Shown: positions 12,822 through 62,296 of the stretch, piece after piece
Layout of the letters: the number at the start of each line of letters is the position of its first letter
How positions within the stretch are numbered: position 1 is the stretch's first letter
DNA from: Armatimonadota bacterium
Lineage (GTDB): Bacteria; Armatimonadota; DTGP01; JAKQQT01
Direction: 5' to 3'
DNA length: 64,000 bases
NCBI GenBank assembly: GCA_036504095.1
Contig: DASXVS010000026.1
Span: 62,001-126,000, forward strand
Position numbers and translations under genes: made by a program
Notes under the pieces: model-generated
Told to the model about the DNA's origin: nothing
What the model saw: the letters and a program-made list of their open reading frames with translations, nothing else
Database searches by the model: none

Positions 12822-13622
12822 ATGAAAAGGACCATCTTCTCGACGTTGGTCATGGCCGGTTTCGCCGGCTTCGTTCTGACTGGCGCCCTGGCGCAGAATA
12901 CACCTACGCCAACTCCTGCACCGGCACCCGCGGCAAAACCGGCCAAGGTTGTCAATATAGACTTCAAGGATATGGCGATCCGGGACGCGTTGGACGCGCT
13001 CTTCCGGGGGACCGGCCTCAACTACGCGCTGACACCGGAAGCTGCCCAGACAGCTCCCACCGTCACCATCAATCTACAAGATGTGACCTTGGACGCGGCG
13101 CTGAGCATCCTCACCAAGTCCAACGGCCTTCGTTATCGGAAAGACCGTGATACTGGCGTCTATATGATCGAACCGAAAACCGCGGACGCGGCGGCGACGC
13201 CGGTTAACGGTACCCCGACAACGCCGGACACTTCTACCACAACGCCAGATACCCCAACGCTGCAGATCGAAAAAATCCCGATGAACTACGCCGACTCCCT
13301 GGACATCTACGGCACGCTGACGGGCCAGGGCAGCAACCGGGCCGGCAATATGATGAACAGCGGCGGAGGCTTCGGCGGCAATAGCGGTTTCGGCGGCAGC
13401 AGCTTCGGCAACAACAGCTTCGGCGGCGGCTTCGGCGGAAACAGCGGCTTCGGCGGCGGTTTCGGCGGAAACAGCGGCTTCGGCGGCGGCTTCGGGAGCA
13501 GCGGCTTCGGCGGTGGCTTCGGGAGTAGCGGCTTCGGCGGCGGTTTCGGCGGAAACAGCGGCTTCGGCGGCGGCTTCGGGAGCAGCGGCTTCGGCGGCGG
13601 ATACGGCGGATTTGGCCGCTGA
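12822..13622 (+). CDS. Secretin N0/STN-type domain fused to a Gly-rich repeat tail
   Basis: A 266-residue exported protein. Residues 1-24 are a signal peptide (VLTGALAQ) and a Pro/Ala/Thr linker follows. Residues 42-123 form one secretin N0/STN-like domain (VVNIDFKDMAIRDALDALFRGTGLNYAL ... LDAALSILTKSNGLRYR ... GVYMIEPK). After a Thr-rich linker, residues 175-266 are almost entirely Gly, Phe, Ser and Asn in GFGGNS / GFGGG units. No secretin pore domain is present. In secretins the N0 domain contacts inner-membrane or periplasmic partners. Here it may dock a Gly-rich adhesive or structural tail to a machine, perhaps the secretins at 14.6-19.4 kb; that is inference. GGAAGGAG precedes the ATG and a terminator follows. 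Confidence 0.8.
   Translation: MKRTIFSTLVMAGFAGFVLTGALAQNTPTPTPAPAPAAKPAKVVNIDFKDMAIRDALDALFRGTGLNYALTPEAAQTAPTVTINLQDVTLDAALSILTKSNGLRYRKDRDTGVYMIEPKTADAAATPVNGTPTTPDTSTTTPDTPTLQIEKIPMNYADSLDIYGTLTGQGSNRAGNMMNSGGGFGGNSGFGGSSFGNNSFGGGFGGNSGFGGGFGGNSGFGGGFGSSGFGGGFGSSGFGGGFGGNSGFGGGFGSSGFGGGYGGFGR
13366..13617 (+). repeat. In-gene tandem repeats encoding GFGG units
   Basis: Short units of about 12-24 bases based on GGCTTCGGCGGC and GGCGGAAACAGC recur throughout this segment, giving many nearly identical GFGGGFGG / GFGGNSGFGG blocks. Such repeats can gain or lose copies by slippage and change protein length without breaking the frame, because the units are multiples of three. Confidence 0.85.
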
Positions 13623-13649
13623 TTTTGGGCCGATCATTTTATCTCATAC

Positions 13650-13684
13650 AGGCGCCTCGTCCAATGGCCGAGGCGCCTCTTTCT
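13650..13684 (+). terminator. Rho-independent terminator after the N0/Gly-rich gene
   Basis: A 10-bp stem (AGGCGCCTCG at 13650-13659 with CGAGGCGCCT at 13669-13678, nine-base loop) is followed by CTTTCTT. It lies 28 bases after the stop codon. Confidence 0.85.
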
Positions 13685-13762
13685 TGAAGAGACACGACGG
13701 TCACGGAACCTCAACTGTCGCATCTTCCGGATCGCGGCTACATTCCGGCCTTGGGAAAACCG

Positions 13763-14308
13763 ATGAAGCATCAGGTTGCGACGACGGCGATTCTCGCGAG
13801 CCTCCTCGCGGTTTCGATACCTTGCGTTGCTCAGACGCCATTCGCGGACGTTCCCAAAGGGCATTGGGCCTATGACTGCGTCCGATCGCTCTACCCGAAA
13901 GCCCTCTTGTTGCCGTATCCCGATGGGACGTTTGGCAGCAAGCGGCTGATGACGCGCTATGAGTTCACGGTTTGTGTCGCCCGTTCGGTTCCCATGTGGG
14001 AGCAGCGTATCGAGGGTAAGCCAGGCAATCGCGCCCCCCTGGCGTTCCCTGTGCCTGATCGGGATGATTTTGCGTGCCTTACTGCATTGGCCGACGAGTT
14101 CACGCCGGAGTTGAAGGTCCTCCAGGTGAACGTGCCAAAGCTGAAGGCGACCCTCAGGCGGCTCCGATTCGCGGCGATGCCGGCGGCGCTGCGTGAGAAC
14201 CCGCTGGCTGTCCCCCCGCCATTCGCGGATGTGCCGCGCAATCATTGGGCGTATGACGCAGTCTGCTTCCTCGCCGATCGTGGGATCATAGGGGGATACC
14301 CGGACTAG
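13763..14308 (+). CDS. SLH-domain protein with truncated second repeat
   Basis: A 181-residue exported protein with a signal peptide (MKHQVATTAILASLLAVSIPCVAQ). A complete SLH motif follows (PFADVPKGHWAYDCVRSLYP ... YPDGTFGSKRLMTRYEFTV, about residues 26-74). A linker of about 75 residues leads to the start of a second SLH motif, PFADVPRNHWAYDAVCFLADRGIIGGYPD. There the frame stops with TAG, exactly where G-T-F and the second half (xxxxTRYEF) should continue. The sequence after the stop does not resume an SLH motif in the same frame. SLH domains bind secondary cell-wall polymers and anchor proteins at the envelope; with one and a half repeats, anchoring may be weak. The neighbouring secretins suggest a cell-envelope role. 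Confidence 0.78.
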   Translation: MKHQVATTAILASLLAVSIPCVAQTPFADVPKGHWAYDCVRSLYPKALLLPYPDGTFGSKRLMTRYEFTVCVARSVPMWEQRIEGKPGNRAPLAFPVPDRDDFACLTALADEFTPELKVLQVNVPKLKATLRRLRFAAMPAALRENPLAVPPPFADVPRNHWAYDAVCFLADRGIIGGYPD

Positions 14309-14626
14309 CAGCCCGAACGCGGTAGAGTCGCCCTCTCACATTTGCCCGTTGAGAAAGCCCTTCCACGCGTGATCCACGGTTCAGGCGTTTTGTGCCTCTC
14401 CCCCCGACCACTGCGGGACTTGACGTGGACGGTCACCCGCGATTTGAGGCGTCAATGGTTCAGGTGCGAACTCCCGGGGCCGTCGACGCGTCGAAGTTTG
14501 TGGACAATTCAACTAGCTTCTCGCAAATTCTTTCCGTTAGGCGCGACCGTGCCCGGTTGCCTTACGTCAAAAGCCCGGTCATAGCATGGGGCCGCTGTTT
14601 CATTTTCTGTTTAATGGGAGTCACGA
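14309..14626. other. 318-bp gap upstream of the first secretin, no gene seen
   Basis: No convincing coding frame with a ribosome site lies here; the short open frames have atypical composition. The segment must contain the secretin cluster promoter. GGGAG at 14616-14620 is the ribosome site for the GTG start at 14627. The AT-richer stretch 14500-14615 (TGTGGACAATTCAACTAGC, TTTCATTTTCTGTTTAATG) is the likeliest promoter and leader. I could not fix the -35/-10 boxes. Confidence 0.5.
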
Positions 14627-16018
14627 GTGACACTGCGCACAAATCCCCTTCTGCGGCGAGCAATGGGCGTATCGCTGCTGATCGGTTCATGTCTTGCATC
14701 GGGCATCGCCCGTCCGGCCCAACCGCTGCCCGCGCCCCGGGTGCCATCCGCGGCCACCGTGCCCCCCGCTCCCGGTCCGGACCCCGCGGCGGTGAAGCCC
14801 GCGGCGCCGACGGCGGATGCAATTCAGATCAGCAAATCGGATAAGGGCATTTCTGTGTATGCCGTCTCGGCGGATGCGCACGCCCTGTTCACCCGTCTCG
14901 CCAAAGAAGCCGGGCTGAAGTTGATTGTCGATGATTCTGTGCGCCGGAACATCACCATCAATCTCATCGACAAGTCCGGCCCGGAGATTCTCGCCAATAT
15001 CGTGGCGGCTTTCGGCCTTTCCAGCCGCGAGGTGAATGGGATCCACATCGTGAGCGAGGGAATCCCGACCAGCCCCTCCTCGTACCTGCTGAGCGACATC
15101 GACGCCATTCGCACCCAGTACGTGCTGGCGCCAAACGCCAAGTCTCTTCTTCCGGTGTTTCTGCAGGACCACGTCAAGACAAACGCCGAGCAGAACTCTG
15201 TAATTCTCTCGGCTCCGCCGGACGTGCTCACGAAATTCCGCCAGGACATCGCTCAATTCGACATCCCGTCCGCGCAGATCATGCTGGATGTCCTGATGGT
15301 TGAGTTCACCGACTCCTCGTCGAAAGAGTTCAGCGCCAAGTTCGATTTGACCACCCGCGGCCGCGAATACACCGTGAATTCGCCCGTAGGGGAAATACTC
15401 TACCGAACGCTGTCAACCCTGCCAAACGGGTTCAATGCGGACATCCACTCCCTCGTCACGCAGGGTAAAGCGCGCATCCGGGCGAATCCCAGCATCGCAA
15501 CCGTGAGCGGACAGGCGGCCAGGATCTTCATCGGGAAGCAAAGGTACATCTCCACACCGGTGAGCATGGGCGGTGATTACTATGGCGGCCGCAACTACAT
15601 CGACGCGGGGGTGACGCTCAACATGACGCCCTGGACCGGCGGTGAGGGCGAGATCATCGTGGACGTTCAACCCGAGATCAGCGTGCTCAGCGCGCCGGAC
15701 CCGAAGACCGGACTCCCGGACAAGAGCACCCGGCGGGCAAACACGACGCTTCACGTCCGGGACGGCGAAACGATCATCATCGGCGGTCTCGTGCAAAAGG
15801 AAACCATGACCACGCGAACGAAGATCCCGATTCTGGGCGATCTGCCGCTCGTGGGTTCCGCCTTCCGCTCGCGTGACGACCGCGAGACGACCACGGACAT
15901 GGTTATCTTCATTACGCCGCACATCCTCTCGCAGACAGGACATCTGCCGGCCGAGCAGGAGAAGGAAATACAGAAGCGGGTACTCCAGGATGACGCGGGA
16001 AAGGCAAAGGTCAATTAG
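14627..16018 (+). CDS. Secretin, first of three tandem paralogues
   Basis: A 463-residue outer-membrane secretin. The GTG start has GGGAG nine bases upstream and opens a signal peptide (LLIGSCLASGIARPAQ). A Pro-rich linker precedes an N0/STN-like domain (about 70-150), then a short N1-type domain (YVLAPNAKSLLPVFLQDHVKT ... IAQFDIPSAQIMLDVLMVEFTD). The pore domain (210-450) has the usual late motifs RIRANPSIATVSGQAARIFIG, TTLHVRDGETIIIGGLVQ, KIPILGDLPLVGSAFRS and MVIFITPHIL. Secretins form gated rings for type II secretion, type IV or Tad pili. There is no AMIN domain, unlike the next two genes. The gene overlaps the second secretin by 29 bases. Confidence 0.9.
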   Translation: MTLRTNPLLRRAMGVSLLIGSCLASGIARPAQPLPAPRVPSAATVPPAPGPDPAAVKPAAPTADAIQISKSDKGISVYAVSADAHALFTRLAKEAGLKLIVDDSVRRNITINLIDKSGPEILANIVAAFGLSSREVNGIHIVSEGIPTSPSSYLLSDIDAIRTQYVLAPNAKSLLPVFLQDHVKTNAEQNSVILSAPPDVLTKFRQDIAQFDIPSAQIMLDVLMVEFTDSSSKEFSAKFDLTTRGREYTVNSPVGEILYRTLSTLPNGFNADIHSLVTQGKARIRANPSIATVSGQAARIFIGKQRYISTPVSMGGDYYGGRNYIDAGVTLNMTPWTGGEGEIIVDVQPEISVLSAPDPKTGLPDKSTRRANTTLHVRDGETIIIGGLVQKETMTTRTKIPILGDLPLVGSAFRSRDDRETTTDMVIFITPHILSQTGHLPAEQEKEIQKRVLQDDAGKAKVN

Positions 16019-17753
16019 GATCCCCGCCCAACTTGCGCGCATTGGCACCACACTGCTGGCGGCCGGCCTTCTGTGTTCACACGCTCAGGCTCAGGGAGCA
16101 GCGTACTGCAACATCACCCGAATATCGGCGAAACGCCTGCCGAATGCCGTTCAGGTGACCATTCAAGCCGATGGAGCGATGCGTCTGAGCGCCAGGATTG
16201 AAGACTTCTTCGATATGAAGGCGCTGCAGGCCGGCAGATTCGAGGATATTGCCAAGCCGGTTTCCTCGCTTCCGTTCCGTGTCGTCAACGCGCGGTCCAG
16301 GGTCAGCAGTTTCACGGACATCGGCCTATACCCGGTGAGCCATGTCGAGGTGTCCGTGCCATCCAACACGCCCGAAGGCATCGGCGTCGATATTCGTGTG
16401 GCGTTGCTGGCCCCTTCGGTGCCGGAATCGGTCGCGATGCTCGAAGATTTCAATTTTGTGGATCCGTCACGAAAGGGATCAGTGGCGAACGTCCAGTTGA
16501 CCCCCGACAAAACGACTCTCATCGTGGTTGTGACCAGCGACCGGCAAACGGCACAGCCTACCGTGCTAAGGTCGGCGCCCCCGGGAGCGCCCGTTCAACT
16601 TGATGTGTCATCGCAAAGCGGTAACATCTCGATCCACGCGCTTAACGCCGACCTGAAGGACATGCTCCGCCGCGTTGCTGTTGCCGCCGGACGCCAGATC
16701 GTGCTCAACGGCACCGCCGATCACACGGTGAGCCTCTGGATGGACGATGTTTCGCTACACGTCGCGCTCAGCACGGTGGCCATCGCGTACGGCCTGAACG
16801 TGGATGATTCGGGGCCGATCCTGCAATTTGCCGACGCGGACGCGCGAAGTGTGCCTTCCTTTGGAATGAGCGTGACGGAGATCATCCCACTGCGATGCAT
16901 CGAGGCCGCCGCTGTCAGGAACTGCCTGCCCGATTTTCTGCTCCGATACACCAGCGCAGACACTCAGCAGAACACGCTCACGGTTTCCGGCCCGGAATAC
17001 CTCGCCCGCAAGGTTCGCGAAGACGTTGCCGTGCTCGATCGCCCCTCGCCCCAGGTGGAATTGTCCGCTCAGGTTCTCGAGTTTGCGTCGAGTGAAGACC
17101 TGGACATGGCGTTGGGGGCGGACGCTGGCAAAGGATCCCGCGGCGCAATAGTCGATGTGGGAACCGGTGACATTTCGATCCGCCAATTGGATGCCGCTCC
17201 CGCGGCGTTTGGCGCACGGCTTCGAGCCCTCCGGGCCTCCGGCCGCGCGCGCCTGGTCGCCACGCCCAGCGGGACCGCCCTGCTCGGCAAAACGGCAGAC
17301 CTCTTCGTCGGACAGCGCAAGTTCGTAAAGACGATGGCTTTCGACTATTCCAATGGAGAATGGACAGCGCAGTTTGTGGGGGTTGACGTTGGCGCCAAGC
17401 TCACGGTCAAGCCCCTGATGCTGGGCGACGGAGGCGTCACGGTCCATCTTGAGCCTTCGGTCAGTACTATTTCGGAGCTGGAGCCCGTGACCGGCTTGCC
17501 CACCGTGAACACCCGAAAACTCTCGACCACTCTACGCGTCAAGGATGGGGACACGCTCGTCGTCGGGGGCCTCGGATTGCATCAGATCGGACGATCGGCG
17601 AGGGGTATACCATTCCTACGCGACCTTCCCCTGATAGGCGGCCTTTTTCGCCTGCCCGGACGTTCGGATTCTTCCAGCGAACTGGTCTTTCTTGTTTCAG
17701 TACACGTACGCAACGCCGCGGAGCGGCCTGGCGTATCGGCGGCGATCATATGA
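15990..17753 (+). CDS. Divergent secretin with AMIN and STN domains, second of three
   Basis: A 587-residue exported protein. After a signal peptide (GTTLLAAGLLCSHAQAQ) comes an AMIN-like beta domain (YCNITRISAKRLPNAVQVTIQ, to about residue 190), an STN/N0-like domain (about 205-290), an N1-like segment (EIIPLRCIEAAAVRNCLPDFLLRY) and a secretin core (about 355-580). The core is the most divergent of the three: the motif that reads ITPHIL or VTPHIL in the neighbours is FLVSVHVRN here, and the final segment is IPFLRDLPLIGGLFRLPG. The ATG at 15990 lies inside the previous gene and its ribosome site is poor. Initiation nearer the previous stop, after AAGGCAAAGG, is possible. It may be a non-pore or assembly-modifying partner of the flanking secretins. 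Confidence 0.82.
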   Translation: MTRERQRSIRIPAQLARIGTTLLAAGLLCSHAQAQGAAYCNITRISAKRLPNAVQVTIQADGAMRLSARIEDFFDMKALQAGRFEDIAKPVSSLPFRVVNARSRVSSFTDIGLYPVSHVEVSVPSNTPEGIGVDIRVALLAPSVPESVAMLEDFNFVDPSRKGSVANVQLTPDKTTLIVVVTSDRQTAQPTVLRSAPPGAPVQLDVSSQSGNISIHALNADLKDMLRRVAVAAGRQIVLNGTADHTVSLWMDDVSLHVALSTVAIAYGLNVDDSGPILQFADADARSVPSFGMSVTEIIPLRCIEAAAVRNCLPDFLLRYTSADTQQNTLTVSGPEYLARKVREDVAVLDRPSPQVELSAQVLEFASSEDLDMALGADAGKGSRGAIVDVGTGDISIRQLDAAPAAFGARLRALRASGRARLVATPSGTALLGKTADLFVGQRKFVKTMAFDYSNGEWTAQFVGVDVGAKLTVKPLMLGDGGVTVHLEPSVSTISELEPVTGLPTVNTRKLSTTLRVKDGDTLVVGGLGLHQIGRSARGIPFLRDLPLIGGLFRLPGRSDSSSELVFLVSVHVRNAAERPGVSAAII

Positions 17754-17767
17754 CGGGAGTACACGGC

Positions 17768-19399
17768 ATGAACCGGATGGTGTGGACGGTGCTGGCTGCG
17801 CTTCTAGCCCCCTCGATGGCGGCGGCGCAGGATTCGGCCTACTGCAATATTACGTCGGTGCGCGCAACCCAATTGAGCAATGGTGTGCAGATAGTCGTGC
17901 GCGCCGACGGCGTGCTCCGGTGGCACAACGCCCGTCCGGGCGGCGCCCAGGTTGTGGTGTATCTGGCGAACGCCAAATCCACCATCGGCAAGAGCTTCAT
18001 CGACGTCGGTAAGTACCCGGTCAGTCACATTCAGTTGGATGTCCCACAGAGCGCCACCCAGGGAGTCGGCATCACCCTGACGGCATCGCTGTACGAACCG
18101 GCAAGCACCAGTATCGAACAGAGCAACGACATGCAAAGCCTCATCATCACCGTCAACAGCAGGCGCACGGTGACGAAACGCCCGGGCGCGGCCTCCTCGG
18201 AAACTACGCCGCCTCCGGCCGCGGGGATGACGGTGACGGTCGACGGCGGCCTCGCCACCGTCTATGCGGAGAAGGCAAAACTGGTTGCCCTTCTCGCCGA
18301 AGTCGGGCATAAGGCCGGGCTGAACATCGCGGTGGACGATTCCGTTAAGGATCGCGAAGTCTCCATGACGCTGGATGCGCTTCCCGTGGCGGACGTTCTG
18401 AAAGGGATCGCCGGCGCGACTGGGCTGGCGCTTAGTGACGAGGGCGGGGTCTATATGGTGACCGACGGCGTGCCGACCGACCTCGCCACGTACCATCTCT
18501 CGTCAACGGAGTCGTTCCGGATGAAATACACCCGCGCGTCAGCAGCGTCCGGGCTGTTGCCAACGTTCCTTTACAGCTATCTTCACGTTAACGAGGCACA
18601 GAACGCGGTGGTGGTGACAGCTCCGGTGCAGATGCTGGACAAGATCCGTGCGGACTTCCAGAAGATCGACGTGCCGCCGTCGCAGATAATGATCGAGGCG
18701 CTTGCGGTGGAAGTCGCTTCCACGGCCGATGCGGGGCCGGCATTGAATCTCTTCTACACCAAGGGTGACCTTACGCTGTCTTCCGACTCCGCGACCGGCG
18801 GAATCACCTACAGCACGATCGGGGCGATGCCGAACGATTTCCAGGCCCGCCTGAATTCGCTGGTTGCGCAGGGCAAGGCGAAGGTGCGCGCCAACCCCAG
18901 AATTGCGGCGGTCAACGGCCAGGACGCAGACCTCTTCGTTGGCGAAACGAAGTTCATCAAAGTTCAGTACAACAGCGGAGGCTACACCCAGGATCGAATA
19001 CAGGGCGTGGATATCGGCGTCAAACTCGGAATTCAGTCGTGGACCGGCGGAAACGGCGAGATCACCTGCACCCTGTCCCCCGAAGTGAGTAACATCAGCG
19101 AACTCGAGCGCGAAACGGGCCTGCCAGTCCTGTCCACGCGCAACGCTCGGACCACGGTGCGGGTAAAAGACGGCGAGACGATCGTCATCGGCGGCCTGAA
19201 CCAACGCCAGGAATACAAAACGAAGACCAGAGTCCCCCTCTTGGGCGGATTGCCGTTTATCGGAAACCTGTTCCGGAGCTCCAAGACCAATACGGTGGAC
19301 TCGGAACTGATGATCTTCGTGACACCGCATATCCTCACGGAAACGGGCCGCCTTAAGGACACCGCGCGCGAAGACGAGATACGCAAGCGGTTCCAGTAG
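17768..19399 (+). CDS. PilQ-like secretin with AMIN domain, third of three
   Basis: A 543-residue secretin. The chosen ATG 17768 has GGGAG eight bases upstream; another ATG at 17750 overlaps the previous stop as ATGA. The signal peptide (MVWTVLAALLAPSMAAAQ) is followed by an AMIN domain (AYCNITSVRATQLSNGVQIVV ... VVVYLANAKSTIGKSF ... YPVSHIQLDVPQ). Next come an N0/STN domain (about 155-235), an N1 segment (RMKYTRASAASGLLPTFLYSY) and a full pore domain ending RVPLLGGLPFIGNLFRSSK and LMIFVTPHILTE. AMIN-N0-N1-secretin is the order of type IV pilus PilQ. Both AMIN domains (this gene and the previous one) begin with YCNIT, so these two genes look like an internal duplication. Confidence 0.9.
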   Translation: MNRMVWTVLAALLAPSMAAAQDSAYCNITSVRATQLSNGVQIVVRADGVLRWHNARPGGAQVVVYLANAKSTIGKSFIDVGKYPVSHIQLDVPQSATQGVGITLTASLYEPASTSIEQSNDMQSLIITVNSRRTVTKRPGAASSETTPPPAAGMTVTVDGGLATVYAEKAKLVALLAEVGHKAGLNIAVDDSVKDREVSMTLDALPVADVLKGIAGATGLALSDEGGVYMVTDGVPTDLATYHLSSTESFRMKYTRASAASGLLPTFLYSYLHVNEAQNAVVVTAPVQMLDKIRADFQKIDVPPSQIMIEALAVEVASTADAGPALNLFYTKGDLTLSSDSATGGITYSTIGAMPNDFQARLNSLVAQGKAKVRANPRIAAVNGQDADLFVGETKFIKVQYNSGGYTQDRIQGVDIGVKLGIQSWTGGNGEITCTLSPEVSNISELERETGLPVLSTRNARTTVRVKDGETIVIGGLNQRQEYKTKTRVPLLGGLPFIGNLFRSSKTNTVDSELMIFVTPHILTETGRLKDTAREDEIRKRFQ

Positions 19400-23232: not shown

Positions 23233-24558
23233 CTACAGGCCGGGACGCTTGCCGTCGGCCGTCCCCTGCCCGCTCCCGATCAGCCGCTTCCACCCTTTGA
23301 CGAGGCTGGAGCCGCGATCGGCCGGCGGCGGCGGCGCGGACACCGGAACGTGATGGGCCTTCGAAGGGTCGAGCAGCGCTTCGCAGAGCGCGCCCATCGC
23401 CAATTCCATGGGGGTGGAAGCGTTCGTCATGTGCTCGGGGTACCCCGTGTTGAGGAGGTCCACCACGCGCGGGTCGTTCGGTATCTGGGCGAAAACCTCG
23501 TGCCCGAATGCGTGCTCCACGTCCTCGATCTTGAACTTGTTCGACCCGGCGACGCGGTTCGCCAGGATCTTCAGCCGGTCGCTCGACACATAGGCGCCGT
23601 CCAGGGTGTCGTACAACTGCTTCGTGTCCGCGATGGTCGTGTAGTCGAACAGGTTGCACACCAAGAGGACGTCGTTGGCCAGCGCCAGGGCGTGCAGCGT
23701 GGTGGCGTGCAGATACGGCGGGGTGTCGAACACAATGTACTTGTATTCGCTCTTGACGACGCCCAGAAGGCGGTCGAGGCACGCCACCGTCAGCGAGTCC
23801 AGCGGCAGCGGGTCGATGGAGCTGAAAAGCACGTGAAGGCCCGAGGGGTGCTTCTGAACGTAACTCGCGATCAGCGAGGAGTCGATGTCGTCCACCATGG
23901 ACGACAGCTCCGCCAGGATCCGCTCCGGCTTCATGTTGAGCGTCGCGGCCACGTCCCCGAACTGCGTGTACAGATCGACGAGCAGCACCTTCTCCTTGCG
24001 GGCGCGCAGCGCCAAAGCGAGGTTCGTCGCCACCATCGTCTTGCCCACGCCGCCCTTGCCGCCGGTGATGCATATCACGCGGGGCAGCTTCGACGGGTCC
24101 AGAAGCGCCCTCACCGTCGGCGATTCCTCGGCCTTTCCGATCTCCATCAGCCGGGCCAGCGACTCCCGGAGCTCATGGGGGTCCAGCGGCTTCGCGATGA
24201 TGTCGGTCACCCGGTATCGCATGGCGTCGCGCAGGAAAGTGGGGTTATCGCCGCCGGACATCACGATGCACGCGACGTTCGGGGCGAAAGTGTGGATCGC
24301 GTGGGCCGTTTCCAGCGGGCCCAGGACCGGCAGCGTGTCGTCCAGCAGCACGAAATCGGGCGCCAGAAGGCCCGCCATCTGCGCGGCCTCCTGCCCATCC
24401 CCCGCCAGCCCGGCGATTTCCATGCCCATCTCGAACAGGAGGTGGCGCGAGTTCTCCCGCGCGCGCGGATCGTGCTGGGCGATGACGATGCGCCGCCGCT
24501 CCAGTTTCGGTTCGGTGGTGGGCCAGATGTGTGAGGGTGACGCGAATTCGTTACTCAT
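23233..24558 (-). CDS. TadZ/CpaE-like pilus localisation ATPase
   Basis: A 441-residue protein with an N-terminal response-regulator-like receiver domain (23-140; Asp73 in VLLDDTLP, Lys123 in IIAKPLDP) and a C-terminal MinD/ParA ATPase (160-400). The ATPase has a deviant Walker A, GGKGGVGKT (166-174), and KYIVFDTPP as Walker B region. TadZ/CpaE proteins place Tad pili at the correct cell position. The conserved receiver Asp/Lys suggest it may still be phosphorylated, unlike many TadZ proteins. The ATG at 24558 was chosen with upstream GGGAA. It is the last gene of the minus-strand pilus cluster. Confidence 0.88.
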   Translation of the reverse strand: MSNEFASPSHIWPTTEPKLERRRIVIAQHDPRARENSRHLLFEMGMEIAGLAGDGQEAAQMAGLLAPDFVLLDDTLPVLGPLETAHAIHTFAPNVACIVMSGGDNPTFLRDAMRYRVTDIIAKPLDPHELRESLARLMEIGKAEESPTVRALLDPSKLPRVICITGGKGGVGKTMVATNLALALRARKEKVLLVDLYTQFGDVAATLNMKPERILAELSSMVDDIDSSLIASYVQKHPSGLHVLFSSIDPLPLDSLTVACLDRLLGVVKSEYKYIVFDTPPYLHATTLHALALANDVLLVCNLFDYTTIADTKQLYDTLDGAYVSSDRLKILANRVAGSNKFKIEDVEHAFGHEVFAQIPNDPRVVDLLNTGYPEHMTNASTPMELAMGALCEALLDPSKAHHVPVSAPPPPADRGSSLVKGWKRLIGSGQGTADGKRPGL

Positions 24559-24698
24559 CGATGATGGTTCCCAGGTATGCCCCATCGAGGAGCATGGCTG
24601 CCGGCAAAGAATGGTGAATGGCGGCGCGCATAACCGCCCAGTGCGCGCGCCGGCCGTAAGTCAACGATATATTATGGGTCTCGCGTGGACGCGGCGGG

Positions 24699-25865
24699 CT
24701 ACTGCGCAAGGTAGAAACTGCGGATTCCGTAATTCGTCCCATCCGGCACTGTGGAGGTGCCGGTCTGCAGCACCCTGGAGCGCATCACCGGATCAACGAT
24801 ATACCCGGTCACCATCGACTTGTCCGCGGACATCCCCGTGATGAAGAACCCTACGTAGCCCTGGAGGGCGGTATCGAAGCTCTTCTGCCCGCTGCCCGTG
24901 AGGCGGTTGCACTCGACGAAGACGCAGAGGCGGGGGTCTTGCTCATCGGGCCAGCCCGGATCATTCCTATTTGGAAAAATCCGGCCGAGCTGTGCCTCCT
25001 TGGTTAGGACACGCTCAAGAACGGAATCGGTGTCCCCACCGTCAGCGACGCGACATATAGCCCTGGCAGTGGCTGCTTTCCACGCGGCCAGGTCATTCGC
25101 CCACGTAAAACTCTTGTCGTTTGCCACGAACAGCAACGACGCGAGCCAGTACGTATTACCGGCGAGTTTGTAAGCAACGGCGGGAGGATCCCCCTTCAGC
25201 CCGGCGATGTACGCATTTACCGCGGTGGTTACATCCGCCTTAGCGGAGATGCCTGAACCGTTCAGATCCAGCGGGGCAATCTCTATCGTAACGGTCGTTC
25301 CACTGGTGGAAACGCCGTAGTTATTCGAATACCCGTTTCCCTGCGCATCCAGGACGAGTTTCAGGTTGGCATCCCAGCCGTTCCACGCAAGATATTTGTC
25401 CGCCCCGGATGGCCCCGCCTGGCCCGCCATGAGCGCAAACGGGCGCAGCAGGTTGGCGATGCCGGTCAGATCGGCGCTGGCCTGCACCACGGACCTTGCG
25501 CTGACCGGCCTGGTGCCCCAGGCTGAGTTCAACACGTGGGCGAACGGTGTGGCGACGTCTTCGGTCGCATCCACAGTAAGCGCCCAGTTCGCCTCGCTGG
25601 CGGTGGCCGTCGGCGCATTATTGTACCCGGCGTAGTCCAGGGCCACCTGTACCGCGGGGGCGTTCTTCTTGCCGATATCCGGACCGCCGGCAAGGGCCGC
25701 GGAGTCGGTCACGTTCTGTAGGCGGCGCTGGCGGATCACCATGGTGCCGTAATCCACGCTGAGGGCGACGAAAGCCATGAGGACGACCAGAACAAGGACC
25801 ACCTGGACCAGAACGTAGGCGCGCCGCTGATGCCGAATGTTTTCCATCACTTCCGGTTCCTTCAT
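24699..25865 (-). CDS. TadG-like pilus-assembly protein
   Basis: A 388-residue protein with a short cytoplasmic N-terminus (MKEPEVMENIRHQRRAY) and one hydrophobic segment (VLVQVVLVLVVLMAFVALSVD). A TadG-type region follows (YGTMVIRQRRLQNVTDSAALAGG), matching the Flp-pilus TadG N-terminal domain that many secreted TadG/TadE-like proteins share. The remaining 300 residues are extracytoplasmic and have no recognisable VWA MIDAS motif. It begins eight bases after the TadE stop. An alternative ATG at 25847 has a slightly better ribosome site. Role: minor pilus component or assembly factor. Confidence 0.82.
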   Translation of the reverse strand: MKEPEVMENIRHQRRAYVLVQVVLVLVVLMAFVALSVDYGTMVIRQRRLQNVTDSAALAGGPDIGKKNAPAVQVALDYAGYNNAPTATASEANWALTVDATEDVATPFAHVLNSAWGTRPVSARSVVQASADLTGIANLLRPFALMAGQAGPSGADKYLAWNGWDANLKLVLDAQGNGYSNNYGVSTSGTTVTIEIAPLDLNGSGISAKADVTTAVNAYIAGLKGDPPAVAYKLAGNTYWLASLLFVANDKSFTWANDLAAWKAATARAICRVADGGDTDSVLERVLTKEAQLGRIFPNRNDPGWPDEQDPRLCVFVECNRLTGSGQKSFDTALQGYVGFFITGMSADKSMVTGYIVDPVMRSRVLQTGTSTVPDGTNYGIRSFYLAQ

Positions 25866-25873
25866 CCTAACCG

Positions 25874-26374
25874 CTAACCGCCGTAGCGCATAATCGCCGT
25901 TCCCGTGAGGGTCCGGCTCGATGTGGAGCCGCCTCCACCGCCCAGCAGGTTGCCAATGCTGCCCAGCAGGGAGCCGGTGATGTAGTCGTACTTGTAGGTA
26001 ACGATGACCTGTATCTGCGCGTCCGTCCCTCCCGGAGGCGCCGTTCCCGGCGTCCAGTCCGACCACGCCGCGTCCGCCGCCTGGCGCGATTTAGTGACGT
26101 ACGACAGGTAAGTCGGGTCCGTGGAGTGGCGCAAAGGGGCGGCCGCGTTGTTCACGGCGGCCGTCACGGCGGCGCTCGTCCCGCGAAGCGCGGCGGCGCG
26201 CGCGCCCTGGTGCGCGGTCATCGTGACGGTTGCGGAGTTCGAGAGCATGAAGCCCATCTCCATGATCCCGAAAAGCAGGAAGATCAGGAGCGCCGACACG
26301 ATGACGAACTCGACGATCGCGGCGCCGCGCCCGGCCCCTCGCCTCCCCCGGTTATCGTATGCCGTGAGTGTCAT
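25874..26374 (-). CDS. TadE-like pseudopilin
   Basis: A 166-residue minor pilin of the Tad system. The prepilin cleavage motif is present: RGAGRG followed by AAIVEF puts Glu at +5 (Glu22), then a 20-residue hydrophobic helix (VIVSALLIFLLFGIMEMGF). The C-terminal half is Gly/Ser/Thr-rich. Its ATG overlaps the TadV stop as ATGA, so the peptidase that should process it is co-translated. Confidence 0.87.
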   Translation of the reverse strand: MTLTAYDNRGRRGAGRGAAIVEFVIVSALLIFLLFGIMEMGFMLSNSATVTMTAHQGARAAALRGTSAAVTAAVNNAAAPLRHSTDPTYLSYVTKSRQAADAAWSDWTPGTAPPGGTDAQIQVIVTYKYDYITGSLLGSIGNLLGGGGGSTSSRTLTGTAIMRYGG

Positions 26375-26904
26375 CCCAGTTTCATGCCTGCCCAGCCGTA
26401 AATCAGATAGGTGGCGCCGGCGCCCAGCGCGATCGCCAGGGCGTACGGCATCTTGCCCGCCTTAGAATTGGACGCGATATCCACGTCCCGGTTGCCGGAA
26501 GCGCGCTGCACGCTGTTCGCCGTGAAATTCGCGAGGGTGTAGCGCATTACGCCGCGCCGCCACATCACGAAAAGAGCCAGAGGGAAACCGGCGATCCCCC
26601 CGTACAGCGCCGTGCCCAATAAAAACCACGGCCCGCAGAGCGAGCCGACGACCATCAGCAGTTTCGCGTCCCCCGCTCCGCAGCGGAAGAACACCATGTA
26701 AATCAGCCCGGCCGCCAAACCGGCAACCAGGCCTTCCAGCATCGTAATCGAGGACGCCGGGCCGCCCAGCAGCCCCAGCAGTATCCCCAACCCGATCGCC
26801 GGCCAGGTGAGCCAGTTGAACACCTTGCTCCAGCGCAGGTCCGTCGCCGAGGCCACGATCAGCGCGAGGACAAGGATGGCTCTGGCTATTTCTGTATAAT
26901 GCAT
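26371..26904 (-). CDS. TadV/CpaA-type prepilin peptidase (A24 family)
   Basis: A 177-residue polytopic membrane aspartic protease. The two catalytic Asp residues lie in the expected places: Asp22 in ASATDLRWSKVFNWLT and Asp79 in the GAGD motif. It has about six membrane segments and lacks the N-methylation domain of the larger PilD, as is normal for TadV. It cleaves Flp pilins and TadE-like pseudopilins at the Gly before the hydrophobic helix. It sits 40 bases after the last pilin gene. Confidence 0.92.
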   Translation of the reverse strand: MHYTEIARAILVLALIVASATDLRWSKVFNWLTWPAIGLGILLGLLGGPASSITMLEGLVAGLAAGLIYMVFFRCGAGDAKLLMVVGSLCGPWFLLGTALYGGIAGFPLALFVMWRRGVMRYTLANFTANSVQRASGNRDVDIASNSKAGKMPYALAIALGAGATYLIYGWAGMKLG

Positions 26905-26944
26905 CGTGTGTTGCAGGCGTTCCGTAAAATATCGACGGAGTTAC

Positions 26945-27115
26945 TCAGCCATGGGGAACGCCGGCGGCAGTCGCATCGTAGCTGGAGTTCACATTCTTTT
27001 CGAGTAACTTGATCGCGCCTGCGCACGCCCCCGCGAAGAGCGCCGCAAGGAGGACGTACTCGACAAGCGTGCCGCCGTCTTGTTCCGTTATCAGCCGCTC
27101 GATGAGTTCCTTCAT
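26945..27115 (-). CDS. Flp-type pilin, fourth of four
   Basis: A 56-residue Flp prepilin: MKELIERLITEQDGG, then TLVEYVLLAALFAGACAGAIKLL. The cleavage Gly and the Glu-Tyr at +5/+6 are present. It is the most divergent of the four (VNSSYDATAAGVPHG tail). The start follows the shared MKEL/MKAM pattern; upstream in-frame extensions are not supported. Confidence 0.87.
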   Translation of the reverse strand: MKELIERLITEQDGGTLVEYVLLAALFAGACAGAIKLLEKNVNSSYDATAAGVPHG

Positions 27116-27159
27116 ACGTTCCCTGCCAAGGTATGCAATCCCCGTCCCATGCCGCACGC

Positions 27160-27330
27160 TCACTTCAGGGCAGCGGAAATGGCGGGTTCGTTCAGTTTCG
27201 TAACGGTTGCAGTACCAACTGCGGTGACGGCGGCGACGCAGGCAACGGCGACAAGGGTGGCCAGCAACATGTATTCGACAAGCGCCGCGCCCTCCTCATC
27301 CTTGACCAATCTGACGAGCATTGCCTTCAT
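27160..27330 (-). CDS. Flp-type pilin, third of four
   Basis: A 56-residue prepilin: MKAMLVRLVKDEEGAALVEYMLL, then a hydrophobic helix and TATVTKLNEPAISAALK. Cleavage before AALVEY leaves Glu at +5. It is preceded by a hairpin-bearing spacer shared with its neighbour. Confidence 0.9.
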   Translation of the reverse strand: MKAMLVRLVKDEEGAALVEYMLLATLVAVACVAAVTAVGTATVTKLNEPAISAALK

Positions 27331-27399
27331 TTCATATCCGCTGGGTCGCGGAGCAATGGCTTGAGCCCCGCGACCCAGCACTACAGGGGCTACCGAAGC

Positions 27400-27561
27400 T
27401 TAGAGCTTACCCTGTACCGCGTCGAATTGTGCCGACGCTTTTGAGCCAACCGCTGTTACCGCCGCGATGCAAACGACCGCGATAAGGGCGAGAAGGAGGA
27501 CGTACTCAACCATTGAGGCGCCTTCCTCTTCCCGCGCCAACCGGCTAACCAATTCCTTCAT
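27400..27561 (-). CDS. Flp-type pilin, second of four (recent duplicate)
   Basis: A 53-residue prepilin, MKELVSRLAREEEGASMVEYVLLL, differing from the next copy in only a few N-terminal and C-terminal residues (KASAQFDAVQGKL against KASKQFDTVQGKL). Gly before ASMVEY is the cleavage site. It forms part of a 252-bp tandem duplication. Confidence 0.92.
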   Translation of the reverse strand: MKELVSRLAREEEGASMVEYVLLLALIAVVCIAAVTAVGSKASAQFDAVQGKL

Positions 27562-27651
27562 TTCAACATCTCCCGTTTCAGCGTGGCCCCAGTTGGGGCG
27601 CGGAGCAATGGCTTGAGCCCCGCGACCCAGCACTACAGGGGCTACCGAAGC

Positions 27652-27813
27652 TTACAGCTTACCCTGTACCGTGTCGAATTGTTTCGACGCTTTTGAGCCA
27701 ACGGCTGTTACCGCCGCGATGCAAACGACCGCGATAAGGGCGAGAAGGAGGACGTACTCAACCATTGAGGCGCCTTCCTCTTCCTTCATCAACTTGGTGA
27801 TCAGTTCCTTCAT
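27652..27813 (-). CDS. Flp-type pilin, first of four and promoter-proximal
   Basis: A 53-residue prepilin, MKELITKLMKEEEGASMVEYVLLL, with a hydrophobic helix and KQFDTVQGKL tail. AGGAGA lies eight bases before the ATG at 27813. An open frame extending upstream to 28143 is rejected because all four pilins start at the same MKEL/MKAM position. Being first and best preserved, it is the likely major pilin. Confidence 0.92.
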   Translation of the reverse strand: MKELITKLMKEEEGASMVEYVLLLALIAVVCIAAVTAVGSKASKQFDTVQGKL

Positions 27814-28736
27814 TTCAATTTCTCCTGTATTTCGTGTTTGGTGGCGGCATATAACGGGAATATGTATTTCTATAAGCCGTAAGTACCGCCGATGGGAACC
27901 GGATGTCATGTGGTCGGCGGGGCCAGGGATGGGTGCCCTCCGTCCGGGTTGATACAGGCCGGCAAGCCTTATGATGTGGTCCGCTGCGCTGCCCTTGCCG
28001 CCTACCCTCTGTGTCTCTTCAGTTTTGCCCAGGCAGGATGCCTCGTCCGGCCGCTGACCGTTCCCCGGTATCGGGGGGCCGCGGGATGCGTCCGCGCGCC
28101 ACCCACCGGGCTCAGCGGCCCGTATGACCTTCACATTGCACAATCCGGGCCAATCCGCCCGTACCGCACGTTTCCTTCGATTTCGCCCGCTCTACGCTGG
28201 ATTCCGGAATTGTAACCCCACTGCCCCGGAGGAAACCACTCTTTTCCCGGTTTTTTTCGGGCTGCCGGGTTCATCCGGCGGGTGAGCCGTTTCGCGGCGA
28301 CGCGAACCAGGTTTTGTACAACTCCGTGCCTATAAGGGTATAACACAATATAAACGGGTCCCGGACCGCCGCGGGAGTCCCTATAGTCCCAATTGCCGGC
28401 GCATGGCGGTCGCAATTGTTTGCGACTTTCGGCGCCCGAATGAACACCTCGGGCATCGCGCCGGGTTTTGAGCGGGGAACCAGACCGGGCGGTCCACGTT
28501 CGCCTGCTAATACCCTTCATTTACATGATATCAGGGTTTTGGCGTAAGCGGTACTACCCAAATGGCTAGGTTTTTACCTACCCTTTCGGGTAGGTTTTGG
28601 AGGGCGTGAGCGTGGGGGCCGGCCTCAGTCGCGAGTTCATCTTGGACGAATCCGGTGGGGAGCACTGGCCTGCCGGCCAACAATGATATGATAGTACCAA
28701 GATTGTTCTGACTCCGCCATATGGCAGCGCAGAAAG
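27814..28736. other. About 0.9 kb without a convincing gene, upstream of the pilin operon
   Basis: No open frame here has a good ribosome site or recognisable product. The part next to the pilins (27820-27900, AT-richer, with TATAACGGGAATATG on the plus strand) should hold the pilin operon promoter. The section 28215-28360 contains AT-rich stretches (GGGTATAACACAATATAAACG) and short GC-rich inverted repeats. A clear hairpin lies at 28571-28598. The right end serves the plus-strand membrane-protein gene. A regulatory RNA is possible but not shown. Confidence 0.5.
28571..28598. terminator. Symmetrical hairpin with T-rich flanks
   Basis: ACCTACCC (28576-28583) pairs with GGGTAGGT (28588-28595) around loop TTTC. 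TTTTT precedes the stem and TTT follows it, so it could end transcripts in either direction. It lies in the non-coding region, far from any recognised gene end. Confidence 0.55.
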
Positions 28737-61420: not shown

Positions 61421-62296
61421 ATGGTTTCGACCGCAAAACAACCAACTACCGTATCGCCGGTCTCCGCGAGGACGCAAAGGCTTGGGCGCCGCTGGCTGCT
61501 GGAGGCGCTGGTCGCGGCGGGAGCGCTCATTTTCGTGCTTCCGGTCGCCATCATGCTGATCACGTCGCTGAAGCCCGACTCGGAGATCGTTCAGTTCACC
61601 GGCCTGCTGCCGAAGGCCGCGACGCTGGCCAATTTCCGGGAAGTGCTCGGCAACTCCGAGGAAATACCGATTTTCCGATGGTTCTTCAACAGCGTTTTCA
61701 TCGCCGGCTCGGTGACGTTCCTGGTCCTGACGGTTTCGTCCTTTGCGGCGTATGCGCTCGCCCGGTTGGACCTGCCCGGCGGACGCACCGTATTCCTGAT
61801 CATCGTGAGCACGCTCATGGTCCCAGGCCAGATACTGCTGGTGCCGGTTTACCTCATCTTGAACCACCTGGGCTGGCTGGACACGCCCGCCGCGCTGATC
61901 ATCCCTGCCGGCGCGGGAGCTTTCGGTGTGTTCCTGCTCTATCAGTTCTTCCTGGGTATCCCGCGCGACCTCGAGGAAGCAGCCGCGCTCGATGGATGCT
62001 CCCGGGCAAGCATCCTGTGGCGGGTGGTGCTTCCTCTTTCCAGGCCGGCGCTCGCCACGCTCGGAATCTTTACTTTCGTCGGCGCGTGGAACGATTTCCT
62101 CGGCCCGATGGTCTTTCTGGATTCCGTGGACAAGTACACCCTGCCGGTCGGCATCGCCCTGTTTCAGAGCTCGTACTACGCGGAATACAGCCTCACGTTG
62201 GCCGCCAGCGTGATTTGCACCCTCCCCGTGCTGATCGCGTTCCTCCTCTTCCAGAAGAACATCATCGAGGGAATCGCGCTTACGGGCCTGAAGTGA
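61421..62296 (+). CDS. Sugar ABC transporter permease, MalG type
   Basis: A 291-residue permease with six hydrophobic segments and the EAA loop LEEAAALDGCSRASILWRVVLPLSRPALATLGIF. GAGG is a few bases before ATG 61421. It is the last gene of the operon; its end overlaps the convergent GH95 gene by 17 bases, so the two transcripts collide without a separate terminator. Confidence 0.94.
   Translation: MVSTAKQPTTVSPVSARTQRLGRRWLLEALVAAGALIFVLPVAIMLITSLKPDSEIVQFTGLLPKAATLANFREVLGNSEEIPIFRWFFNSVFIAGSVTFLVLTVSSFAAYALARLDLPGGRTVFLIIVSTLMVPGQILLVPVYLILNHLGWLDTPAALIIPAGAGAFGVFLLYQFFLGIPRDLEEAAALDGCSRASILWRVVLPLSRPALATLGIFTFVGAWNDFLGPMVFLDSVDKYTLPVGIALFQSSYYAEYSLTLAASVICTLPVLIAFLLFQKNIIEGIALTGLK

Follow-up and report, generated by a model that had tools for sequence, protein, structure and literature searches.

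A free-standing operon of three paralogous secretins in Armatimonadota and its candidacy as a mixed outer-membrane channel

Introduction

Secretins form a superfamily whose hallmark is a ring of 12–15 identical subunits in the outer membrane, and we know of no characterised secretin that mixes different subunits in its ring. Here we describe three consecutive, non-identical secretin genes, which we name S1, S2 and S3, in a 64-kb stretch of DNA (hereinafter the window; positions 62001–126000 of contig DASXVS010000026.1, or C26) from the genome assembly of an Armatimonadota bacterium (the host; 4.68 Mb, completeness 98.6%). We propose, as a reading to which we give an even chance, that S1, S2 and S3 constitute a single free-standing operon that encodes an outer-membrane secretin channel with three obligate components, a channel that is probably hetero-oligomeric, its assembly and membrane location being what we infer from the comparative evidence below.

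The nearest described idea is the mitochondrial pairing of GspD with GspDL in a system resembling the type II secretion system (T2SS; PMC8134430). There, as in the triplet, a protein with a canonical secretin C-domain co-occurs with a particularly divergent paralogue, and the authors interpreted the pairing as an elaboration of the pore (PMC8134430); however, the mitochondrial proteins are eukaryotic and truncated, belong to a broader T2SS-like set of genes, and comprise two paralogues without an operon. Mixed assembly has a precedent in PulD, whose full-length and truncated forms assemble into mixed multimers (PMC4604470). By family profile, the triplet proteins score best with GspD and PilQ, with which they share the secretin, N1 and N0 domains, the helical loop (in S1 and S3) and matches to solved GspD and PilQ structures, the AMIN-like N-terminal domain being a further likeness to PilQ; they differ from both in forming three paralogues in one operon without machine genes, one of which is repeatedly loop-less. 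The filamentous phage secretin pIV (7ofh), which matches in sequence and fold, likewise stands apart from any bacterial secretion operon, but it is a single phage-encoded gene forming a homo-15-mer, whereas the triplet is encoded in the chromosome and has a long history in the phylum. Finally, the Tad secretins RcpA/CpaC have the secretin domain in common with the triplet, and a Tad-type cluster lies nearby in the window (about 4 kb downstream); the host Tad secretin, however, is a separate gene on another contig (C80) and falls outside the S1, S2 and S3 clades. In the open-licence literature we found no tandem, orphan, mixed or heteromeric secretins and no bacterial multi-secretin operon.

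The three secretin genes

A sequence-only reading of the window had pointed to three tandem, non-identical secretins starting at 14627, 15990 and 17768, with overlaps or near-zero spacing. All three are indeed intact open reading frames, consecutive on the forward strand (S1, 14627–16018, 463 amino acids; S2, 15990–17753, 587 amino acids; S3, 17750–19399, 549 amino acids), and all score above the curated cut-off of the Pfam Secretin profile (PF00263, 27.5 bits; S1: 136.6 bits, E-value 7.9e-40; S2: 111.9 bits, E-value 3.1e-32; S3: 140.6 bits, E-value 4.9e-41). The spacing and the first two starts stand: the S1 and S2 reading frames overlap by 29 bp (15990–16018), and the S2 stop overlaps the S3 start by 4 bp (ATGA, 17750–17753), an arrangement that points to coupled translation. 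The S3 start, in turn, is better placed at the earlier ATG at 17750, with 17768 as the second choice.

S1 is a canonical secretin with a signal peptide, an N0-like domain, an N1 domain (Secretin_N, E-value 1.1e-4) and a secretin domain (approximately 15452–15928), together with the helical-loop motif and the conserved C-terminal tail GHLPAEQEK. S2 comprises an AMIN-like domain (approximately 16107–16535), N0 (16596–16835), N1 (16872–17039) and the secretin domain (17052–17711). S3 is a canonical secretin that additionally carries an AMIN-like domain (approximately 17843–18157), followed by N0 (18224–18463), N1 (18500–18667), the secretin domain (18683–19336) and a C-terminal helix (19361–19393). 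It had been claimed that S1 lacks an AMIN domain while S2 and S3 share one opening with YCNIT; the absence from S1 and the shared opening are both correct, but Pfam AMIN (PF11741) does not recognise S2, and S3 remains below its cut-off (17.4 bits, E-value 0.0048, against 20.5 bits). AlphaFold2 single-chain models show a beta-rich N-terminal domain in both proteins, and we set aside the idea that the cysteine of YCNIT forms a disulphide link, as only about half of the S2 and S3 orthologues have it. The altered last motif of S2 (VSVHVRN) was also read correctly, and S2 lacks the C-terminal tail. Its model is nevertheless confident and complete across the AMIN-like, N0, N1 and secretin domains (mean predicted local distance difference test score, pLDDT, 88.6, against 76.9 for S3), and the top Foldseek matches, including those for S2, are secretins only.

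Conservation of the triplet in Armatimonadota

Searches covered 291 Armatimonadota genomes for S1 and S3 and 60 relatives for S2, and recovered S1 orthologues in 67 and S3 orthologues in 64 of the 291 genomes (about 72 genomes from about 25 families when combined). Wherever S1 and S3 were found on the same contig (53 of 53 pairs), they lie on one strand with 1697–2153 bp between the matches, which is room for one S2. Reading 55 loci with position-specific profiles likewise gave the order S1-S2-S3 in every complete locus, and with this the conservation of gene order in relatives, on which the sequence-only reading had made a functional system depend, is borne out. Incomplete loci stop at contig ends, apart from that of one genome, G222, taken up below; in another, G266, S3 is frameshifted. 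Presence is patchy: the only other genome of the host's own family among the 291 (G001) is devoid of the triplet, so that the gene set must have been lost or transferred at times.

A maximum-likelihood tree of 16 triplets together with five other secretins of the host genome placed S1, S2 and S3 each in a single clade (support 100/100, 95/92 and 99/98, respectively). The conserved order and the three separate clades together indicate that the triplet is old and has been inherited as a set of ordered, differentiated genes. Across 48 triplets, the commonest distance at both junctions is −4, that is, a start-stop overlap, which points to coupled translation and suggests that S1, S2 and S3 are translationally coupled. 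Two genomes (G275 and G276; loci L088, L089, L096 and L097) each possess two strongly diverged triplets, one copy being cut by a contig end. The two sets inside one such genome share about 46/25/49% identity (S1/S2/S3), and the counterpart sets of the two genomes 68/53/57% (the S3 value coming from a partial sequence) or 80/70/83%; judged by these identities, the duplicated triplets appear to behave as cognate sets.

Divergence of the second paralogue

The helical loop is the most conserved part of EpsD and is seen in every solved secretin (PMC6532946), and it is essential for membrane insertion (PMC8134430). Scored as the motif hPhhGx(1-3)F, it is present in all 51 S1 and all 46 S3 orthologues, and in 22 of the 49 S2 orthologues, having been lost in the other 27. 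When the S2 loop state is mapped on the S1 tree, parsimony requires five changes, at least three of them on supported branches. The TP motif is found in 46 of 46 S3 orthologues and has been repeatedly lost in S2, and a C-terminal tail common to S1 and S3, G(H/R)LP..E....R.RF, is mostly missing in S2.

S2 also evolves fastest of the three. Within genera, its ratio of nonsynonymous to synonymous substitution rates (dN/dS) is 0.08–0.4, and that of S1 and S3 is 0.02–0.3, pairs with saturated or low-quality alignments, such as L088/L089, having been left out. Hence, S2 is under purifying selection despite the loss of the loop, and the genes are not decayed, the other circumstance that the sequence-only reading had named as telling against a functional set.

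Genomic context and known secretion machines

Clusters of flanking genes recur within families only (e.g., miaB and an aldolase-like gene in family f4, and a recR-type region in f19), and as the flanks differ between families, the triplet behaves as a free-standing unit. In the neighborhoods of the triplets of relatives we saw no ATPase, pilin or platform gene travelling with the unit, and no Gsp genes around the triplet either in the window or in relatives. The host genome is itself well supplied with secretion machinery, with 12 matches to secretion ATPases and several PilM or PilMNO sets. As read from the gene calls, its Tad operon (contig C80, locus L039) and its two PilMNO operons (contigs C25 and C2) have secretins of their own, and PilM is found in 278 of the 291 genomes regardless of the presence of the triplet. 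As these machines own other secretins and PilM is independent of the triplet, the latter is not obviously the gate of a known machine.

Family profiles agree with this, as the triplet proteins do not reach the cut-off of GspD (TIGR02517; 101–154 bits against 351), of PilQ (TIGR02515; 99–130 bits against 284) or of SctC (TIGR02516; 86–94 bits against 238). Nor do the genes stand next to pilMNOP, and as to the Tad secretins CpaC/RcpA, they lie outside the Tad operon and Pfam reports no BON domain for S1–S3.

A contig scan beyond the phylum relied on one query sequence and on short patterns, and is hence no demonstration of absence elsewhere; it recovered only three close relatives, all from Armatimonadota-type metagenome-assembled genomes, one each named for Armatimonadetes, Candidatus Zipacnadia and uncultured Chthonomonadales. 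The same scan returned one Vibrio secretin at 26% identity; no relative was found at 1e-60 among 299 genomes from the phylum of that Vibrio record, a weak test of absence, and the plasmid matches among those listed are all below 30% identity.

Interpretation of the triplet

The sequence-only reading had offered either a hetero-oligomeric ring or a set of exchangeable gates. Its idea of a functional multi-secretin set withstands the two objections that it had itself named, and of its two versions the obligate co-retention of the three genes, their coupled translation and the confinement of loop loss to S2 favour one mixed complex, the assembly of which we infer, over exchangeable gates. S1 and S3 keep the equipment of a pore-former, namely the membrane-inserting amphipathic helical loop, the last beta strand and the C-terminal helix. 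In over half of the lineages S2 is without the loop and mostly without the tail, and there it probably does not insert alone and would need to assemble with S1 and/or S3. In the proposed mechanism, S1 and S3 would thus insert and S2 would depend on them; translational coupling would deliver all three subunits jointly; through their AMIN-like domains, S2 and S3 would anchor the periplasmic part to peptidoglycan; and the channel would serve as a putative gate for cargo or a filament, with the engine encoded elsewhere. More tentatively, and with a little less confidence than in the operon and its channel as such, we suggest a secretin whose three paralogous subunits differ and are not interchangeable, one of them often being unable to insert alone; it would be the first hetero-oligomeric secretin, and one that stands free of all known secretion and pilus operons.

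Several observations weigh against a mixed channel. The host S2 has retained its helical loop (DLPLIGGLF) together with the full predicted fold and, going by its model, might form a ring of its own. The solved secretin rings that we encountered all list a single kind of secretin subunit. The divergences of S1, S2 and S3 are correlated (r 0.88–0.91) as shared ancestry alone would make them. In G222 (L075, 5172–7524), a single-contig assembly, S1 is intact, S2 is present only up to about residue 147 and S3 is missing; this is the sole genome whose break is accounted for neither by contig ends nor by a frameshift, and it may represent a true loss or a misassembly.

Two alternatives carry real though minor weight. 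In the first, which we consider unlikely, the genes encode three separate homo-oligomeric secretins, co-expressed as alternative gates for machines encoded elsewhere. The secretion-ATPase matches and the several PilM or PilMNO sets of the host could use extra gates, and the intact fold and loop of its S2 fit such a role. However, the host Tad and both PilMNO operons already have their secretins; a fixed order, coupling and joint duplication are not required of alternative gates; and a loop-less S2 could not easily make its own outer-membrane ring. In the second, which we hold to be just as unlikely, S1 and/or S3 make the channel, with a pilotin- or plug-like S2, derived from the secretin fold, dedicated to assembling or capping it rather than being a stoichiometric subunit of the wall. 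This would suit a protein that evolves fastest, mostly lacks the tail and has repeatedly shed the loop and the TP motif and yet remains under selection, but S2 retains a well-predicted secretin barrel segment together with N0 and N1, which is more than a pilotin needs.

Quite improbable, by comparison, is that the triplet supplies the secretin of a type IV pilus, type II secretion or Tad system whose genes are scattered. The GspD and PilQ profiles do give the best scores, and the Tad-type genes of the window are close at hand; on the other side, the triplets of relatives are not beside such genes, the NCBIfam cut-offs for GspD, PilQ and SctC are unreached, and the presence of other secretins in the host Tad and PilMNO operons, together with the occurrence of PilM with or without the triplet, led us to reject a pilus or Tad secretin identity. 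Weakest of all, and barely credible, is that these are relics of tandem duplication with one working gene and the others redundant or decaying: the rapid evolution and motif losses of S2 and the loss of most of S2, and of S3, in G222 would fit, but the duplication is older than the spread over about 25 families, the three genes are open in almost every genome and the dN/dS of S2 is well below 1, and on these open frames and ratios we reject decay.

A phylum-wide operon that keeps three paralogues together, one of them losing the loop, provides a way into the question of whether secretin rings can be mixed. It bears on ring symmetry and on the evolution of gating by gene duplication, as well as on the role of a secretin without an adjacent machine, and the triplet also offers a marker for the envelope of Armatimonadota, which has been little studied.

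Neighboring genes and other host secretins

Upstream of S1 on the forward strand lie the two genes that the sequence-only reading had grouped with the secretins, one for a small N0 (STN) protein with a Gly-rich tail (12822–13622; STN E-value 1.5e-15) and one for an SLH protein (13763–14308). Both are present as described, but they lie outside the unit, and neither accompanies the triplet in relatives. Between the STN gene and the secretins there is also a terminator-like hairpin (13650–13686, forward strand) with a 10-bp GC-rich stem followed by CTTTCTT and a predicted fold of −23 kcal/mol (z −3.1); a scan for consensus promoters and terminators gave nothing above chance and missed this hairpin owing to its loop length. 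The gene neighborhoods in relatives and this hairpin led us to exclude the STN protein, the SLH protein and the Tad genes from the system.

The STN protein shares 71% identity over 133 amino acids with one encoded at L043 (11459–12265), adjoining pilQ in the host's pilus operon on C25. Such a small STN protein with a Gly-rich tail thus occurs twice in the host, once inside a pilMNO-pilQ operon and once alone in the window, and it is a possible extra N0 ring for a pilus secretin. The second SLH repeat of the SLH protein ends early, covering 29 of the 44 profile positions, and the protein matches, at 39–47% identity, the N-terminal part of longer open frames (576–779 amino acids) on contigs C41, C45 and C72; by this comparison it is probably a truncated copy.

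The host additionally has two lone secretins without machine genes, at L040 (9333–10865, C48) and L041 (9390–10919, C71). The one on C48, which is beside small secreted proteins, is the best S1-scoring host secretin outside the triplet.

Downstream in the window, on the reverse strand, is a partial Tad-type cluster (23233–28143) coding, as read from the translations, for CpaE-like, TadG/TadE-like and prepilin-peptidase-like proteins and several small Flp-like pilins. It is without ATPase, platform and secretin genes, which are instead on C80 along with a second CpaE-like gene; the host Tad system thus seems to be split over two loci. Within this cluster, two adjacent Flp-like pilin open reading frames (27160–27633, reverse strand) have an identical upstream-coded stretch, MLGRGAQAIAPRP, which suggests a recent tandem duplication that included the leader region.
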